This document shows, piece after piece, positions 1 to 52,595 of a stretch of 64,000 nt of DNA. Under the pieces are notes generated by a model. The model saw nothing but the letters and a program-made list of their open reading frames with translations, was not told the origin of the DNA and did no database searches. This DNA is from Moorella glycerini (lineage in GTDB: Bacteria > Bacillota > DSM-521 > Neomoorellales > Neomoorellaceae): positions 3,298,909 to 3,362,908 of the forward strand of contig NZ_CP046244.1 in the NCBI RefSeq assembly GCF_009735625.1. Direction: 5' to 3'. Each line of letters starts with the position of its first letter. Within the stretch, counting starts at the first letter, position 1. The position numbers and the translations under genes are program-made.

Positions 1-677
1 GGAACGGGTAGAAGGACGCTTCCCCCGTTACTAACCGTAGCTGTAATTGTTCCCAAGAGCTGTTCATAAATATTATTCTGCCTTACAACAGCAACTCCAT
101 AGGCTGCGTCCAATACTATGGCGTCAGTATGGCCGCTGAACTGAACATGAGGAAATAGAAGGCTCGATGGACACCAATCACCTGTGTATATTATTCTTTT
201 TCCCTTTACCGCAATATCAAACCAGGCCGAACCCGGTACATGGCCACTGGAATTAAGGTAAATCTCACTTTCTTTAATTTCCACTTTCTCGCCAAAGCCA
301 ACTGCGCATAGGGGTAAAGAGAGTATATCCTCTGTTTGGTAAGGCTTTTTGTGCCCTGCATTATCAATTGCCTGCAACCAAGCAGTACAGCTTTTGGCAA
401 CCTCCGGTACGACCCAATGGTGCGTGTATATCGGCCTTCGAATTCCCAGTTTACTCAGTAGAGGCAGGGCACCACAGTGATCTTCATGAGCGTGGCTCAA
501 CAAAGTGGCTTCAATACCATTTAAAAGATTAACTTCCCAGTGAGGATATTCTCCCGCTTCAGAAGCAGTAAATGTACGTTTAACGCCGCAATCTAGTAGT
601 ATAAGGCAATTTCCTTCTTGCAACAAAAAACAGGAACGTCCTTGCTCGGATACTCCACCCCAGCAGTGTAATTTCAA
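1..677 (-). CDS. MBL-fold (beta-CASP-like) metallo-hydrolase, partial
   Basis: The first 225 residues are visible; the C-terminus runs off the left edge. A TTG start at 677 is chosen because AGGAGG lies about 10 bases upstream and no ATG fits. The metal-binding motif HAHEDH is at residues 62-67, followed by GHVPGS near 145-150 and YTGDW near 164. The GHxxGS plus YTGD order is usual in beta-CASP nucleases and the related archaeal-type exonuclease group. That assignment rests on family knowledge; the beta-CASP part itself is outside the window. The gene follows the phosphoglycerate-mutase-like gene on the same strand, separated by an R1 repeat. The substrate (RNA or small molecule) cannot be told from here. 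Confidence 0.75.
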   Translation of the reverse strand, partial: MKLHCWGGVSEQGRSCFLLQEGNCLILLDCGVKRTFTASEAGEYPHWEVNLLNGIEATLLSHAHEDHCGALPLLSKLGIRRPIYTHHWVVPEVAKSCTAWLQAIDNAGHKKPYQTEDILSLPLCAVGFGEKVEIKESEIYLNSSGHVPGSAWFDIAVKGKRIIYTGDWCPSSLLFPHVQFSGHTDAIVLDAAYGVAVVRQNNIYEQLLGTITATVSNGGSVLLPV

Positions 678-6089: not shown

Positions 6090-7019
6090 ATGACTTTAAA
6101 ACAGCTACGCACTTTCTGTAGTGTAATGGAAGAGGGGTCTTTCCACGGCGCTGCGGACCGCTTGTTCATGACTCAACCTGCCGTAAGCCAACAGATAAGT
6201 GCTCTGGAACAATATTGTGGAACTAAATTATTAGTGCGGGGGGGTAAGAAACTTTCCCTAACCCCGGAAGGTCGCTTTTTGTATGAGCTAGCAAAACAAA
6301 TTTTATCCGCTATCGATGAGATTCCCATGAGGTTTGAAAAGGCCCGTAGTGCCGGTACGAAGGCTATATCTATAGGGGCTTCCAGTTTAACAGGAACCTA
6401 TATATTACCCCTTGCTATAAACAAATACAGGCAATTATACCCTGGCGACAAGATCTCTCTCGAGATTGGTTATGCCCGAGATATAATTGAAAAGCTTCGC
6501 GAGTGCAAACTTGATTTCGCCTTTTTAGGGGAAAATCCCGGCTGGGCAGAAGGCGAAGAATTAGAGTTTCTGCCGGTAGGGAAGGATAAACTGGTGTTTG
6601 TTGTTTGGCCCGGGCACAGGTGGGTCGACCGGGATATGGTTATGCCCGCAGAATTACTGGAGGAAACCTTTATCCATTCCAAGCAAGGTTCTGGTATGCG
6701 CGCGTTGGTTGAAGCCTATCTTCAAAAAGAGGGGGTAGGGAAGCCCAACTCAATAGTAGAAATGGGTAATATTGAAGCTATTAAAAAAGGAGTGGCAAGC
6801 CGACTAGGCGTAACAATTGTAAGCTATTTTGGCGTCCGCGAAGAAATCTTGAGAAAAGAATTAATATCGATACCTCTCTTCCGGTTAGATAAGGTATGCA
6901 GGGATTTCGTTTTGGTACACCATAAAAATCATAAAATGAACAGTTCTGATATTAACTTGTATGAAATATTGAGGGAGGTTGTAGTAAAAGCAGATCCAGT
7001 TTTACATGTTCCGTTTTAA
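6090..7019 (+). CDS. LysR family transcriptional regulator
   Basis: 309 aa, the usual LysR length. The N-terminal winged helix (MTLKQLRTFCSVMEEGSF..., recognition region AADRLFMTQPAVSQQISALE, about 17-37) is followed by a periplasmic-binding-like effector domain from about 90 to 295. GGAGAGGG lies 8 bases upstream of the ATG. It is divergent from the DASS transporter operon, whose substrate or a metabolite of it is the likely co-inducer. The ISL3 element now separates the regulator from that operon by more than 1.4 kb. Its last codons overlap, on the opposite strand, a decayed FmdE-like fragment. Confidence 0.92.
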   Translation: MTLKQLRTFCSVMEEGSFHGAADRLFMTQPAVSQQISALEQYCGTKLLVRGGKKLSLTPEGRFLYELAKQILSAIDEIPMRFEKARSAGTKAISIGASSLTGTYILPLAINKYRQLYPGDKISLEIGYARDIIEKLRECKLDFAFLGENPGWAEGEELEFLPVGKDKLVFVVWPGHRWVDRDMVMPAELLEETFIHSKQGSGMRALVEAYLQKEGVGKPNSIVEMGNIEAIKKGVASRLGVTIVSYFGVREEILRKELISIPLFRLDKVCRDFVLVHHKNHKMNSSDINLYEILREVVVKADPVLHVPF

Positions 7020-7310
7020 ATATTTCCTCCTCCGGCGCTTCCAGGATATGTTGTAAACGCTGTTGCTGGTAACGGCCGTAAAGCTCCTTTTCCACAGTTG
7101 TGGCCTGGCCGCTGAAAATGCGCGCCCGCAGGTCCCTGTAGGCCTCGTCTTCCTTACGGCCGCCACTTTTTAAAGCGACCCTGACGGCAGCGCCCGTCTT
7201 CCTATCGCCTATAGTAAATACATGCTTGCCGTAGTCCCGGTAAAGGAGATTGCCTTTCCCCAGGGTGCAGCCGGTAAGGACCTGGCTGGCATCCACGCCG
7301 TAGTAACGGG
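6952..7310 (-). pseudogene. FmdE-family fragment (formylmethanofuran dehydrogenase subunit E-like)
   Basis: The translation contains GVDASQVLTGCTLGKGNL and YRDYGKHVFTIGDR, the central signature of the FmdE family, then ILEAPEEEIFKTEHVKL. The N-terminal third (normally with a conserved Cys/His site) is absent: a stop codon lies in frame three codons before PRYYGVDAS. The C-terminal zinc-ribbon part is also missing. A residual open frame of about 114 codons remains from an ATG at 7296. It is a remnant, not a working gene. FmdE proteins are linked to molybdopterin enzymes, but no such gene is adjacent. Confidence 0.75.
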
Positions 7311-7412: not shown

Positions 7413-7541
7413 TCTCGCAAGAGCTGGTTAACGCCAATTGCCGAGGGGCAAGATAACTTTGCTTTTTTTTGGCAGGAGAAAAGTCTTTCCTGTCGAATAA
7501 GCTTTTCATGGGGAAAAAACCGGCGGTCGAGGTGTCCTAAA

Positions 7542-8012
7542 ATGTTTAAGGAAAGTTTTCCAAATATAATATATGCTTTGCTCCTCCAGGATTTTCCCGA
7601 GAGCCTGGTACTAACGATGGCGGTCTTTAGCCTTTTGAACCTGCGGATAAAAGATAGAAAGGTTCTTGCCATTGCCCTGTTGCAGACCCTCACCAACCTG
7701 GTACGCCTTCTGCCCATCACCTTTGGCGTGCATTCGGTAATTTTGATCTTATCCTTAGCTGCCTATACCCGGCTTTTCACCCGCGCCCAACTGTCCAAAA
7801 TATTTTTGGCCGTCCTGCTCTGCTTTGCTCTTATAGCCACCGCCGAGCTTATTTACTCGCAACCCCTTTTAAACCTTACCGGGTTGGAATATGAGGAAGT
7901 CTTCGCCAATCCTTTTTTGCGAGCAGCCTTTGCCCTCCCCTACACAGTACTATTGTTGATCCTGGCTTTAGTCAAGAATTATTATAACCAAAAGAGGGGA
8001 TTGGTTTGTTAA
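7542..8012 (+). CDS. Agr-associated membrane protein resembling a kinase-less peptide sensor domain
   Basis: 156 aa, almost entirely hydrophobic, with about 5 predicted membrane segments. The N-terminal part (FPESLVLTMAVFSLL...) and the stretch NLVRLLPITFGVHSVILIL resemble the membrane sensor half of AgrC-type histidine kinases in Clostridia, judged by pattern. The protein stops after the last helix (LVKNYYNQKRG) and has no HisKA or HATPase part. It overlaps agrB by 7 bases and is therefore translationally coupled. It could bind the mature AgrD peptide and signal through a partner, or assist AgrB. No homology search could be run. Confidence 0.7.
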   Translation: MFKESFPNIIYALLLQDFPESLVLTMAVFSLLNLRIKDRKVLAIALLQTLTNLVRLLPITFGVHSVILILSLAAYTRLFTRAQLSKIFLAVLLCFALIATAELIYSQPLLNLTGLEYEEVFANPFLRAAFALPYTVLLLILALVKNYYNQKRGLVC

Positions 8013-8626
8013 GGCTTAACCTGACCCGACCGGCGGCAGCCTACTTAAAGGAGAAGCTCAATTTAACCCCCGATGAAGAAGAGATCGCCATCTATGGGCT
8101 GCAAGTTATCATCTATCCCCTCATAAGCTTGCTGTCCATCAGCCTGGTAGGCTGGCTGTTAGGCTGCCTGTATACCACCCTGGCCGCTACCTTAACGGCA
8201 GCTTTCCTGCGCCTGTGGTCCGGCGGGGCCCACAGCCGGTCGCCCCTAACGTGCACCCTGCTGGGGGCATTTGTTTCCCCGGCCCTAGGGAAAATATCTC
8301 TAGTGTTGGCGCCTCTTTTGAGCCCTTTTCACCTATTATTAACAATTATCCTGGGTTCGCTCTTATCCTTGTTCTTCGTCGGGCGCCTGGCCCCGGTTGA
8401 TTCTCCGGCCAAACCCCTTCTTTCCCCCCAATACCGCCAGAGAATGCGGCGTTTATCCATCACCAGCGTTTTTTTAATCGCCGCCGTACAAATTACCCTG
8501 CTGGCTACGGCCGAGGCCCCGGCCGTAGTCCTGGCCCTGAGCCTGGGTCTATGGTGGCAGACCTTTACTTTGACCAGGGCGGGACACCGGTTTGCCACTC
8601 TCATAGACGAAATAATCTCAGCGTAA
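8006..8626 (+). CDS. agrB: AgrB-like peptide-processing membrane protease
   Basis: 206 aa with several hydrophobic segments. The catalytic pair is present as His76 and Cys83 in RLWSGGAHSRSPLTCTLLG, with the 7-residue spacing seen in AgrB enzymes. AgrB removes the C-terminal tail of AgrD in the membrane and forms the thiolactone ring. The start is TTG at 8006 with AGAGGGGA upstream, overlapping the end of the previous gene. agrD follows after 18 bp. Confidence 0.9.
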   Translation: MLRLNLTRPAAAYLKEKLNLTPDEEEIAIYGLQVIIYPLISLLSISLVGWLLGCLYTTLAATLTAAFLRLWSGGAHSRSPLTCTLLGAFVSPALGKISLVLAPLLSPFHLLLTIILGSLLSLFFVGRLAPVDSPAKPLLSPQYRQRMRRLSITSVFLIAAVQITLLATAEAPAVVLALSLGLWWQTFTLTRAGHRFATLIDEIISA

Positions 8627-8644
8627 GCAGGGAGGTGAAAGAGG

Positions 8645-8776
8645 ATGAAGCGTTTACTTAACCGCCTTTTGCCTGCCGCATTCAGCGTCTTGGTCTTTGC
8701 CGCTGCTATTGGAGTCAAGCCAACTTGTGTATTCTTTTTCCATCAGCCCGAGGTGCCCAGGTCCCTCCGCAAATAG
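8645..8776 (+). CDS. agrD: AgrD-like cyclic autoinducer peptide precursor
   Basis: A 43-aa peptide starting at the ATG at 8645, with GGGAGGTGAAAGAGG just upstream. It has a basic amphipathic leader (MKRLLNRLLP), a hydrophobic middle (AAFSVLVFAAAIGV), a ring-forming core KPT-CVFFF and an acidic/proline tail HQPEVPRSLRK. This is the AgrD plan: leader, Cys plus four residues, then a xQPE-type tail removed by AgrB. By analogy with clostridial AgrD the mature signal is probably a five-residue thiolactone starting at Cys28 (CVFFF). That prediction is inference; the precursor identity is well supported by position after agrB. Confidence 0.9.
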   Translation: MKRLLNRLLPAAFSVLVFAAAIGVKPTCVFFFHQPEVPRSLRK

Positions 8777-8796
8777 GTGGCTCTTCAGAATAATCT

Positions 8797-8833
8797 GTAC
8801 CGGGAAGCCCCGCCCTTCCCGGTACCCATTTTT
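8797..8833 (+). terminator. Hairpin with short T-run after agrD
   Basis: A perfect 11-bp stem, GTACCGGGAAG / CTTCCCGGTAC, with a 7-base loop is followed within three bases by TTTTT. It could end, or only partly attenuate, transcription between agrD and the GGDEF/HD-GYP gene. Confidence 0.65.
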
Positions 8834-8914
8834 GAGGAATTGCGGGGGCTCGCTGCTCCAGGCAAATGAAAGAGATGACGTCTCAGCTTTAACTCTGGCA
8901 AGGGAGAAGCGTCG

Positions 8915-10588
8915 ATGCGTAAATGGGAGCAAAAGAGGGCGCAAGAGATATCCGAGTATATTTTAGTTACCCATATCGTCAGCCTTTTGATTTTTTTAAT
9001 GATCGTTTTCAGCTTCTACAATCTACCCTTAGGCTTTCATCTGCGTTTGTACTTGCTATTTATGTTTATTATTTTCGCTGCAACAATCATAGCGTATACT
9101 GCCAGCAAACTCCTCCCCAGAATAACCAATCTGGAACAGCCGCAGATAGATGAGATTTTGCTGCTGGCCGTCATTTTCCCGTTGGCCTTTATCTTTCTCT
9201 GGTACAGCCATAATTTTTTCGGGGCCAAGGTTTTGATCTTGGTCCCCTCCATAATCGCCGCCACCAGCCTGGGCAAGCTGGGGGGGACAGCGGCCGCTGT
9301 TGTGGCCAGCGCACTCCTTTTTTTTCTGGATTACCGCTTGCACAACCACTTGCCTCCCGAAATTTTCCAAACGAACTCTCTCATCACCAGCGTTAATCTC
9401 CTGCTCACCTGGCTGGTGGGCGGGCTGATGGAAGTAGAAAGGAAAACCCGGCAGGAGTTGCTCCAGCTTGCCGATTACGATCAATTAACCGGACTGCACA
9501 ACCACCGCTACCTGCAAGAAAAGCTGGCCCTAACCTTGCAAAAAGCGGCAGCGGAAAATCTTCCTGTATCCTTTGCCTTATTAGACATCGATCAATTTAA
9601 GTACTTTAATACGGTTTACGGTTACCAGAAGGGGGATGAAATTTTAGCCAACATCGGGCAATTATTAGGGGAGGAAATCAAAGAGCCGTGTTATGCAGCC
9701 CGCTACGGCGGGGATGAATTCGCCCTTATTTTTCCAGGGAAAGAAAAAAGCGAGGCCGCCAGGGTGACTTTCTATATTAAAGAAAAAATAGTGAGCCGCG
9801 CCAACATCTCCTTGCTGGAGAACGAAAGCACGCCGCCTTTCAAGCCTTTTACCATTGTTGTTGGCTTAGCGAGTTACCCGGCTGACGCTGACGGGATTTC
9901 TTCTCTGGTGAGGGCGGCAGAAAATGACCTTTACAGAGGCAAGTACTCGCGAGGCGACGCTTACCTTTATTATTCTATAATCAGCGAGATAACCCACTTA
10001 AAAGTCAAGGAGGCCTTCCCTACCCTCCAGACCCTGGTGGCGCTGATAAATATCAAAGACCGCTACACCTTCGGTCATTCGGAGAGGGTTATGTCTTACT
10101 CTCTAGCCCTAGCGAAAAAATTACCCCTCTCCGAGGAAGAAAAAGATACCTTGCGCTACGGTGCCTATTTACACGACCTTGGGAAGATCGAAGTCGAGAG
10201 CGCCATCCTAAATAAAACAGGCTTTTTAACCGCAAGAGAATGGGAGATCATGAAAATGCATACAATATATGGTAGCGAAATAGTCAAACCTTTACTATTT
10301 TTCCAAGATATATCACCGATTATTCGCTCCCATCATGAAAACTACGATGGCTCTGGCTATCCGGATGGCTTAAAGGGAGAGGAGATCCCGCTCCCGGCGC
10401 GCATTGTGCGCCTGGCCGACAGCTTCGATGCCATGACTACCGACCGCCCCTACAAAAAGGCGCTGACCTTTTCCCAGGCCAGCCAAGAATTGCAGCGGTA
10501 TGCTGGTAGCCACTACGACCCCTTGCTCGTAGACCTTTTTCTGGAAGCGGTGAAAGAAGCATATGAAAAACGGCAGAACTATCTGTAG
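8915..10588 (+). CDS. Membrane GGDEF plus HD-GYP protein (cyclic-di-GMP turnover)
   Basis: 557 aa: about six membrane segments (residues 15-172), a GGDEF domain (185-350) and an HD-GYP domain (370-557). The GGDEF active site is intact (RYGGDEFAL, 263-271), so it could make c-di-GMP. An RxxD inhibitory site is not visible; the corresponding place reads KEPC. The HD-GYP part has HDLGK at 420-424 and HHENYDGSGYP at 473-483, so it could hydrolyse c-di-GMP. The gene starts 138 bp after agrD, on the same strand, beyond a hairpin. The membrane region is a candidate receptor for a signal, possibly the agr peptide. Which activity dominates cannot be decided from sequence. Confidence 0.92.
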   Translation: MRKWEQKRAQEISEYILVTHIVSLLIFLMIVFSFYNLPLGFHLRLYLLFMFIIFAATIIAYTASKLLPRITNLEQPQIDEILLLAVIFPLAFIFLWYSHNFFGAKVLILVPSIIAATSLGKLGGTAAAVVASALLFFLDYRLHNHLPPEIFQTNSLITSVNLLLTWLVGGLMEVERKTRQELLQLADYDQLTGLHNHRYLQEKLALTLQKAAAENLPVSFALLDIDQFKYFNTVYGYQKGDEILANIGQLLGEEIKEPCYAARYGGDEFALIFPGKEKSEAARVTFYIKEKIVSRANISLLENESTPPFKPFTIVVGLASYPADADGISSLVRAAENDLYRGKYSRGDAYLYYSIISEITHLKVKEAFPTLQTLVALINIKDRYTFGHSERVMSYSLALAKKLPLSEEEKDTLRYGAYLHDLGKIEVESAILNKTGFLTAREWEIMKMHTIYGSEIVKPLLFFQDISPIIRSHHENYDGSGYPDGLKGEEIPLPARIVRLADSFDAMTTDRPYKKALTFSQASQELQRYAGSHYDPLLVDLFLEAVKEAYEKRQNYL

Positions 10589-10601
10589 AAAGGGTGTGGG
10601 G

Positions 10602-11033
10602 GTGTCCGGCCCGAAAAAATCTGCTGCTATACCTTTTCGTCTCCTGCCCGATCCCGGTTCCTGGGCCATACCTTCCCCGGAAGCGCTTTTTTTGGTGCTC
10701 ACTGAACAAAACTATCAAACGTATTACCCTGCAGCCCCCGAGGGAGCAGACTTCCTCCAAAATGTTTATCTCCTAGCCTGCTGGGGAATAAAACCCAATC
10801 CCGGTTATAAGCTCTCCATTTCGCAGATAGCCCAACATGCGCGGGAAGTCATTATAAGCATAAAGTTTATCGAGCCGGAACCCCCTAAATTTTATCCCCA
10901 GGTTGTCACTAGCCCCCTCGTGGTCTCTGAGGTAGCTAAAGCTGCTTTTTCTCCCCGCGGGCTGCTAACTTTTATCTTTATGGCAGAAAAGGGTTTGGAA
11001 CTAGCCCGCCTCGAAACTAATGTTTCACCGTAA
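10602..11033 (+). CDS. PrcB-like protein
   Basis: About 143 aa. The C-terminal half (NPGYKLSISQIAQHAREVIISIKF, then EPPKFYPQVVTSPLVVSEV) matches the pattern of the PrcB C-terminal domain. In the Treponema dentilisin complex, that protein is needed for assembly of the PrcA-PrtP subtilisin. No signal peptide is visible. GTG at 10602 or 10596 is the likely start; an upstream ATG at 10563 would overlap the preceding gene. It converges on a subtilase gene and the two 3' ends overlap by 9 bases. The pairing supports a role in protease function, but this remains inference. Confidence 0.65.
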   Translation: MSGPKKSAAIPFRLLPDPGSWAIPSPEALFLVLTEQNYQTYYPAAPEGADFLQNVYLLACWGIKPNPGYKLSISQIAQHAREVIISIKFIEPEPPKFYPQVVTSPLVVSEVAKAAFSPRGLLTFIFMAEKGLELARLETNVSP

Positions 11034-51974: not shown

Positions 51975-52595
51975 TTACCCCGCCTTTTCCGCTGACCACT
52001 TTTCCTCCCACATGGGCCACAATGCCTCCGCCGCTTCCACCAGCACCGCATCGAACTGGATGGCTTTGTTGGCCACAACTTCTTCCCAGCAGTGGTGCCA
52101 GGTAAATGCCGGGCGGTAAGGTCTTTCTGAGGTCATGGCGTCGATGGCATCGCATAAGGCAATAATCCGTGAACCTAAAGGAATAGCCTCGCCTTTTAAA
52201 CCAGCCGGATAACCCTTACCGTCCCAGCGTTCGTGATGGTACAGGACCAATCGAGCTATCGAGCTCAATCGCCGCGATTTGGTCAAAATGTTAAAACCTA
52301 TTTCCGGGTGGCGTTGGATAACTGCCCATTCGTGAGGTAAAAGGCGGCCCGGTTTGCGTAAAATCTGCTCCGGGACGCCAATTTTCCCGATATCATGCAA
52401 ATGGGCGGCCATATGTATATTCTCGAGTTCTGCGCCTTTAATCCCAATTCTCCTAGCAAGGTCCAAGGACATATCGGCCACGCGCACTGAATGGGCTTTA
52501 CAATAAGGATTCTTGACTTCCAGGGCGGCCGTTAAACATTCAATAATGTCATGGTAGATTCCATACAGTTCACGCCCGCATATCCAAGAAAGCAT
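51975..52595 (-). CDS. Stand-alone HD-GYP domain protein
   Basis: 206 aa consisting of one HD-GYP domain: AHSVRVADMSLDLARRIG, AAHLHDIGKIGVPEQIL and YHHERWDGKGYPAGLKGEAIPLGSRIIALCDAIDAM. The metal-binding His/Asp set is intact, so c-di-GMP phosphodiesterase activity is likely. No receiver or membrane domain. It is downstream of a DUF2325 gene and next to the iron operon. Both c-di-GMP proteins of the window are thus in different neighbourhoods. Confidence 0.9.
   Translation of the reverse strand: MLSWICGRELYGIYHDIIECLTAALEVKNPYCKAHSVRVADMSLDLARRIGIKGAELENIHMAAHLHDIGKIGVPEQILRKPGRLLPHEWAVIQRHPEIGFNILTKSRRLSSIARLVLYHHERWDGKGYPAGLKGEAIPLGSRIIALCDAIDAMTSERPYRPAFTWHHCWEEVVANKAIQFDAVLVEAAEALWPMWEEKWSAEKAG

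Follow-up and report, generated by a model that had tools for sequence, protein, structure and literature searches.

The window analyzed here is a 64,000-nucleotide stretch of the Moorella glycerini genome (contig NZ_CP046244.1, positions 3,298,909 to 3,362,908 of the forward strand). It contains an agr-type peptide-signaling locus in which agrD is followed by the gene for a membrane protein with cyclic di-GMP (c-di-GMP) enzyme domains. The locus consists of four genes, encoding a small membrane protein (to be referred to as SEN), AgrB, AgrD and the enzyme, whose membrane part is a six-helix domain (to be referred to as TM6). An earlier note on this DNA had described these four genes, and open reading frames, profile matches and sequence motifs confirm all of them. 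The features are listed below in window coordinates.

7542-8012, forward strand: SEN, a five-helix membrane protein of 156 residues.
8006-8626, forward strand: agrB, with a TTG start, for a putative peptide protease/cyclase (PF04647, E = 1.9e-35, 122 bits).
8645-8776, forward strand: agrD, for a cyclic peptide precursor of 43 residues (TIGR04223, E = 2.2e-10, 40.4 bits, cut-off 19).
8726-8740, forward strand: predicted ring codons 28-32 of agrD (Cys-Val-Phe-Phe-Phe), placed by comparison of AgrD layouts.
8797-8825, forward strand: terminator-like hairpin in the gap between agrD and the enzyme gene, with an 11-pair stem and a T run.
8915-10588, forward strand: enzyme gene, for a 557-residue membrane GGDEF/HD-GYP protein (GGDEF, 3e-31; HD_5, 1.1e-40).
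8915-9442, forward strand: TM6, the candidate input domain (approximately residues 1-176 of the enzyme), matching no Pfam family.
9443-10588, forward strand: GGDEF and HD-GYP output domains, with profile matches and catalytic motifs.

The genes are closely spaced on a single strand. SEN and agrB overlap by 7 nt, agrB and agrD are 18 nt apart, and 138 bp separate agrD from the enzyme gene. No kinase domain is found by Pfam or NCBIfam profiles in any gene of the four-gene unit, and no LytTR response regulator (AgrA) lies within the locus. The description of the locus as kinase-less is upheld over a wider region as well, as neither a kinase nor a response regulator is seen between 4.7 and 14.4 kb of the window.

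The order of these genes is strongly kept. The arrangement of sensor-like protein, agrB, agrD and GGDEF-HD-GYP protein, which the earlier note had proposed to look for in relatives, is present in most genomes having agr loci in the genus, family and order, and it extends across the phylum. Examples are found in Moorella stamsii, M. mulderi, a Thermanaeromonas, Syntrophaceticus schinkii, an Ammonifex and a Syntrophomonadaceae genome. From our reading of the loci, 26 family-level groups of the phylum contain TM6-GGDEF-HD-GYP genes that adjoin agr genes. A TM6 profile search through 398 genomes of the phylum, blind to the neighboring genes, finds matches in 79. Among the 39 matches below 1e-30, 38 adjoin agrB or SEN on the same strand, and the remaining one (locus L137) is at a contig end with agrD directly upstream. 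Counted over all fetched loci, some of them twice, an agr or SEN gene is found no more than 1.6 kb from 52 of the 54 TM6-GGDEF-HD-GYP genes, and the remaining two genes start at contig ends. In addition, SEN, AgrB and both parts of the enzyme (TM6 and catalytic) are under purifying selection relative to three close relatives, with ratios of nonsynonymous to synonymous substitution rates (dN/dS) of 0.07-0.38; the ratio for AgrD is 0.08-0.54, over 43 codons only. The order is more than chance, because it recurs in many families and its coding parts are under purifying selection.

The enzyme in the window has intact GGDEF, HDLGK and HHENYDGSGYP motifs, and no PAS or EAL domain is found in it by profiles. 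Among 49 aligned homologs, HDxGK is present in all and the HHE...GYP motif in 48, with an alignment gap at this place in the remaining one. Only 34 of the 49 have GG(D/E)EF; in seven near relatives, M. stamsii and M. mulderi among them, its place is taken by GSDEF. The RxxD inhibitory site is not found in the window enzyme, which has KEPC at this position, and a regular-expression match to it occurs in one of the 49 homologs. The two sites had been described earlier as intact, which holds for the window itself; however, GGDEF is degenerate in several close orthologs, and RxxD is all but absent. Breakdown of c-di-GMP by HD-GYP is the predicted conserved activity of this enzyme family, because the HD-GYP motifs are near-invariant while GGDEF is degenerate in several close relatives. 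The GGDEF domain in the window may still be active.

The SEN protein belongs to no named family in Pfam or NCBIfam. Its AlphaFold model has five helices, with a mean predicted local distance difference test (pLDDT) score of 84.9. A sequence search against solved structures finds no relatives of SEN, and Foldseek/VIA gives no convincing fold. SEN is found in 153 of the 398 genomes, within agr loci of every output kind. In each of the loci L004, L006, L011 and L013, a protein of 450-470 residues begins with SEN, followed by kinase domains (Pfam was checked for L011). In L011 the SEN profile covers residues 8-137 of a fused HATPase_c_5/SPOB_a kinase, and the SEN part is followed by two more helices and the HATPase_c_5 kinase. 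In many Moorella loci, SEN precedes a separate protein with two helices and a kinase, with or without a LytTR regulator. Because homologs of SEN are fused to, or stand just before, a two-helix kinase, it is best taken for the sensor half of an AgrC-like receptor in two pieces. The name 'sensor-half-like', given earlier to this protein, is thus borne out by both the fused and the split homologs. Phage AgrC, taken as an external yardstick, matches in the kinase domain only, and 'AgrC-like' refers here to the fused and split kinases of these loci.

TM6 occurs twice in the M. glycerini genome, each time in an agr locus, and the identity between the two copies is only 28%. The same domain is also present on PAS/GAF-HisKA hybrid kinases, which are unlike AgrC kinases, at the same position in agr loci or directly behind SEN (L158, L172, L145, L140 and L151). 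SEN immediately precedes a TM6-kinase, without an intervening agrB, in L140 (where the genes overlap by 4 nt and no agrB is nearby), L151 and L154. TM6 looks like an input module, because the outputs swap behind a constant front.

The model of TM6 resembles the six-helix membrane anchor of adenylyl cyclase 5, with a Z score of 13.7 and a root mean square deviation of 3.4 over 182 of 186 residues, for a model with a pLDDT of 74.8 and against a level of about 13 that some helical bundles reach by chance. The ten best structural matches are all membrane cyclases (Z scores of 13.7 to 9.4), and the next unrelated row has a Z score of 6.8. The likeness of the modeled fold to six-helix cyclase anchors is suggestive. 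A sequence search against solved structures finds no match for TM6, including none that links it to CqsS or to the cyclase anchors.

The machinery for making the peptide appears to be complete. The earlier identification of AgrB by His76 and Cys83 is borne out, with both residues invariant in the 81 aligned AgrB proteins, and that of the 43-residue AgrD by its above-threshold match to TIGR04223. The AgrD homologs have in common the layout C-x4-[HY]-Q-P-E-V-P, from which a five-residue ring, Cys28-Val-Phe-Phe-Phe32, is predicted. The ring codons vary among close species (CVFFF, CSVCF and CNFFF), and the flanks are unchanged. In some AgrD precursors (for example of the kind of L034, L044 and L055, loci that were not traced individually), a Ser replaces the ring Cys, which suggests lactone rather than thiolactone peptides.

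The hairpin between agrD and the enzyme gene consists of an 11-bp stem followed by CCATTTTTGA. It is present in a single copy in the M. glycerini genome, and is thus ruled out as a repeated element. It is kept in M. stamsii, M. mulderi and the Moorella genome G010 with a T run that is longer than in the window (6-7 T), and the T runs are 5-7 long across all four Moorella genomes. No comparable stem is found in L190 and L192, where the gap between agrD and the enzyme gene is 31-45 nt. Partial termination between the two genes is plausible in these four genomes. The hairpin noticed earlier is real, but most relatives lack it. Because it is confined to the four closest Moorella genomes, we regard it as a local refinement and not as a core feature of the system.

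Three AgrB genes are present in the M. glycerini genome (G000). One design, SEN-AgrB-AgrD-enzyme, is shared by the window locus and L033. The third locus, L034, contains SEN, a separate two-helix kinase (SPOB_a and HATPase_c_5), AgrB and AgrD, with no regulator adjoining. The only other HATPase_c_5 domain of this genome is in an unrelated NtrB-like kinase. Each of the three LytTR proteins is either in a LytS/YehU-type pair or alone. An agrC-agrA pair elsewhere as the true receptor, which the earlier note had considered fatal to its proposal, was not found by the LytTR and HATPase_c_5 scans of the genome; the sole AgrC-type kinase has its own SEN and agrBD (L034). In most genomes of the family, the L034-type locus is flanked by rsmB-like and rlmN-like genes and neighbors genes for FHA-domain proteins, with no response regulator adjoining it. 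Seven c-di-GMP-I riboswitches and one PilZ protein are present in the M. glycerini genome, and c-di-GMP therefore has readers in this organism.

The gene set, conservation, motif integrity, domain swapping and fold similarity described above are computed. With these at hand, we consider it likely that the locus is a peptide quorum-sensing unit with a c-di-GMP enzyme, rather than a kinase and a regulator, as the output of its receptor. AgrB would cut and cyclize AgrD to give a small ring peptide, a processing step that we infer for this M. glycerini strain. Outside the cell, the peptide would bind to and be sensed by SEN and/or TM6, which are probably in contact as a single membrane complex. 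The signal would then run down the last helix of TM6 to the GGDEF/HD-GYP part. The presumed response of the enzyme is a change in the c-di-GMP level, most likely through breakdown by HD-GYP, with GGDEF being regulatory or weakly active, and c-di-GMP would act through the riboswitches and the PilZ protein of the cell. The coupling of an agr peptide to c-di-GMP that the earlier note had put forward is supported in this respect by the conserved order and the absent agrC-agrA pair, but the sensing of the peptide is still something that we infer.

A more specific reading is offered tentatively, at somewhat below an even chance. SEN and TM6 may together form a two-part receptor for the cyclic peptide: a six-helix domain of the cyclase-anchor kind would receive the signal through SEN and directly set a c-di-GMP enzyme. 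Several observations weigh against the quorum-sensing unit proposed above. The confidence of the model of TM6 is moderate (pLDDT of 74.8), and the Foldseek E-values of its matches are not significant. In five cases TM6-kinases have no SEN or agr genes nearby, so TM6 is able to work without this peptide. A recognized SEN or AgrB is missing from some of the units (L149, L173 and L189). Counted in favor of the unit is a clean split by partner in a tree of SEN: the partners of TM6 proteins (52 rows) are separated from those of two-helix kinases (35 rows) with a support of 99/95, and the GGDEF-HD-GYP and kinase outputs are intermixed on the TM6 side. However, a control tree of AgrB has the same split into two operon kinds, with weaker support (92/76). 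The SEN tree was rejected as proof of a SEN-TM6 contact, because the control tree splits likewise. By sequence, the two splits show two old kinds of operon that were inherited mostly whole.

It is conceivable, but unlikely, that TM6 alone is the peptide receptor and that SEN serves in peptide export, AgrB support or assembly of the receptor. The modeled TM6 resembles stand-alone six-helix receptors of the CqsS type, and the presence of SEN in agr loci of all output kinds is as expected of an export factor. However, the fusion of SEN to a kinase in four loci puts it where AgrC has its sensor, and a role in export or AgrB support is not available to it in L140, where it immediately precedes a TM6-kinase and agrB is not nearby.

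Two other explanations were considered. The peptide could be sensed by another kinase, such as the split AgrC-like one of L034, with the enzyme being a co-transcribed target that senses something else. The genome does have an AgrC-type kinase with its own SEN, and agr loci may in principle engage in cross-talk. On the other hand, the L034 kinase has its own agrBD, the enzyme adjoins agr genes across 26 families (including gaps of 31-45 nt), and TM6 swaps between outputs at the agr position, all of which make this explanation quite improbable. Even less credit is given to the idea that the AgrBD peptide is non-signaling and the enzyme is linked to it for unrelated reasons, for example operon hitch-hiking. 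This would fit with the few loci that have lost AgrB but have SEN and AgrD (L189), and both the ring chemistry and the activity of the peptide are predictions. However, a variable ring with fixed flanks between close species is as in peptide signals with matched receptors, and the linkage is more specific and older than hitch-hiking would allow. We regard this last explanation as very improbable.

The production of the peptide appears to be that of an ordinary agr system, with an AgrB protease having the conserved His and Cys, a cyclic AgrD precursor, and, as the sensor, a relative of the N-terminal half of AgrC-like kinases. The novelty would lie in a cyclic-peptide route into c-di-GMP by way of a split membrane receptor. 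Unlike AgrBDCA, the Moorella locus has no kinase or LytTR protein, its output is a membrane GGDEF/HD-GYP enzyme, and the sensor half is a separate protein; SEN is homologous to the membrane part of AgrC-like kinases, but there is no kinase on the same chain. In the VirS system of Clostridium perfringens, an AgrBD peptide with a five-residue ring is recognized by a membrane receptor other than the classic AgrC (PMC7492741). This receptor is a histidine kinase paired with VirR, whereas the presumed receptor in Moorella is kinase-free and lies within the agrBD unit.

RpfR is a soluble protein with the architecture PAS-GGDEF-EAL. The quorum signal known as Burkholderia diffusible signal factor (BDSF) acts directly on this c-di-GMP enzyme (PMC9684580). 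Its signal is a fatty acid and its host Gram-negative, in contrast to the cyclic peptide, membrane receptor and HD-GYP domain, with no PAS or EAL, in Moorella. Membrane receptors with dCACHE domains for autoinducer-2 (AI-2) can carry a c-di-GMP enzyme. Such receptors read AI-2, and a direct action of this signal on c-di-GMP enzymes has been proposed (PMC7584622). The signal there is a furanone and the domain extracellular, in contrast to a peptide and an intramembrane helix domain in Moorella. Six-helix adenylyl cyclase anchors are exchangeable with the quorum receptor CqsS, and the chimera couples the signal to a cyclic-nucleotide enzyme (PMC4821796). These anchors are like TM6 in being a six-helix membrane domain as quorum receptor (presumed so for TM6); unlike them, TM6 has no sequence relation found to the anchors, its output is c-di-GMP, and it has a separate partner, SEN. 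No prior description of a cyclic-peptide route into c-di-GMP with a split membrane receptor was found in the open-access literature on agr together with c-di-GMP, HD-GYP, Moorella or orphan receptors, most subscription papers being outside its coverage.

The genes around the unit are of other kinds. Upstream of it, profiles find a LysR gene, an ISL3 transposase and an FmdE fragment (6952-7296, reverse strand), which covers profile positions 44-133 of 133 and is probably a gene remnant at a rearrangement border. In M. stamsii, M. mulderi and G010 (L038, L041 and L053), SEN is preceded on its strand, at a distance of 50-61 bp, by a CHASE4-PAS-GGDEF gene (789-819 residues). The synteny of the window with these relatives ends at 7454, and the LysR gene, the transposase and the FmdE fragment take the place of the CHASE4-PAS-GGDEF gene, of which no close copy is found elsewhere in the M. 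glycerini genome. Downstream of the enzyme gene lies that of a small PrcB_C protein (10563-11033, forward strand), whose frame shares its first 26 nt with the enzyme gene and which is kept in close relatives. It is followed by two genes on the opposite strand, which we take, from reading the sequence, to encode a subtilisin-type protease-like and a glucanotransferase-like protein. A second HD-GYP domain protein is encoded in the window at 51975-52595 (reverse strand).

Some variant loci were also observed in relatives. L189 (and genome G012) has SEN, AgrD and a broken enzyme frame, with no recognized AgrB; this locus may be decaying or served by the AgrB of another locus. L195, in a metagenome-assembled genome of Ammonifex, has two tandem agrBD units, one of them without the enzyme. 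In L037, L045 and L063, from relatives of Moorella, a sigma-factor-like gene is just upstream of agrB, and SEN and a kinase are downstream.

Cyclic-peptide quorum sensing has so far been seen as a kinase and a regulator, and this locus suggests a second, widespread design that feeds c-di-GMP directly. As c-di-GMP is a messenger of surface life and motility, this would join two fields that have been linked only indirectly in Gram-positive bacteria. If SEN and TM6 do form the receptor, peptide quorum sensing without kinases would be widespread in Gram-positives, its input exchanged between c-di-GMP enzymes and hybrid kinases. The constant SEN and AgrBD with varied outputs behind TM6 are a natural experiment on communication between membrane sensors and enzymes. 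They also point to a candidate for the natural input of six-helix cyclase-type anchors, the role of which as receptors is a long-standing question. Moreover, Moorella is an industrial acetogen, and a peptide that sets c-di-GMP would give a practical handle for its control.

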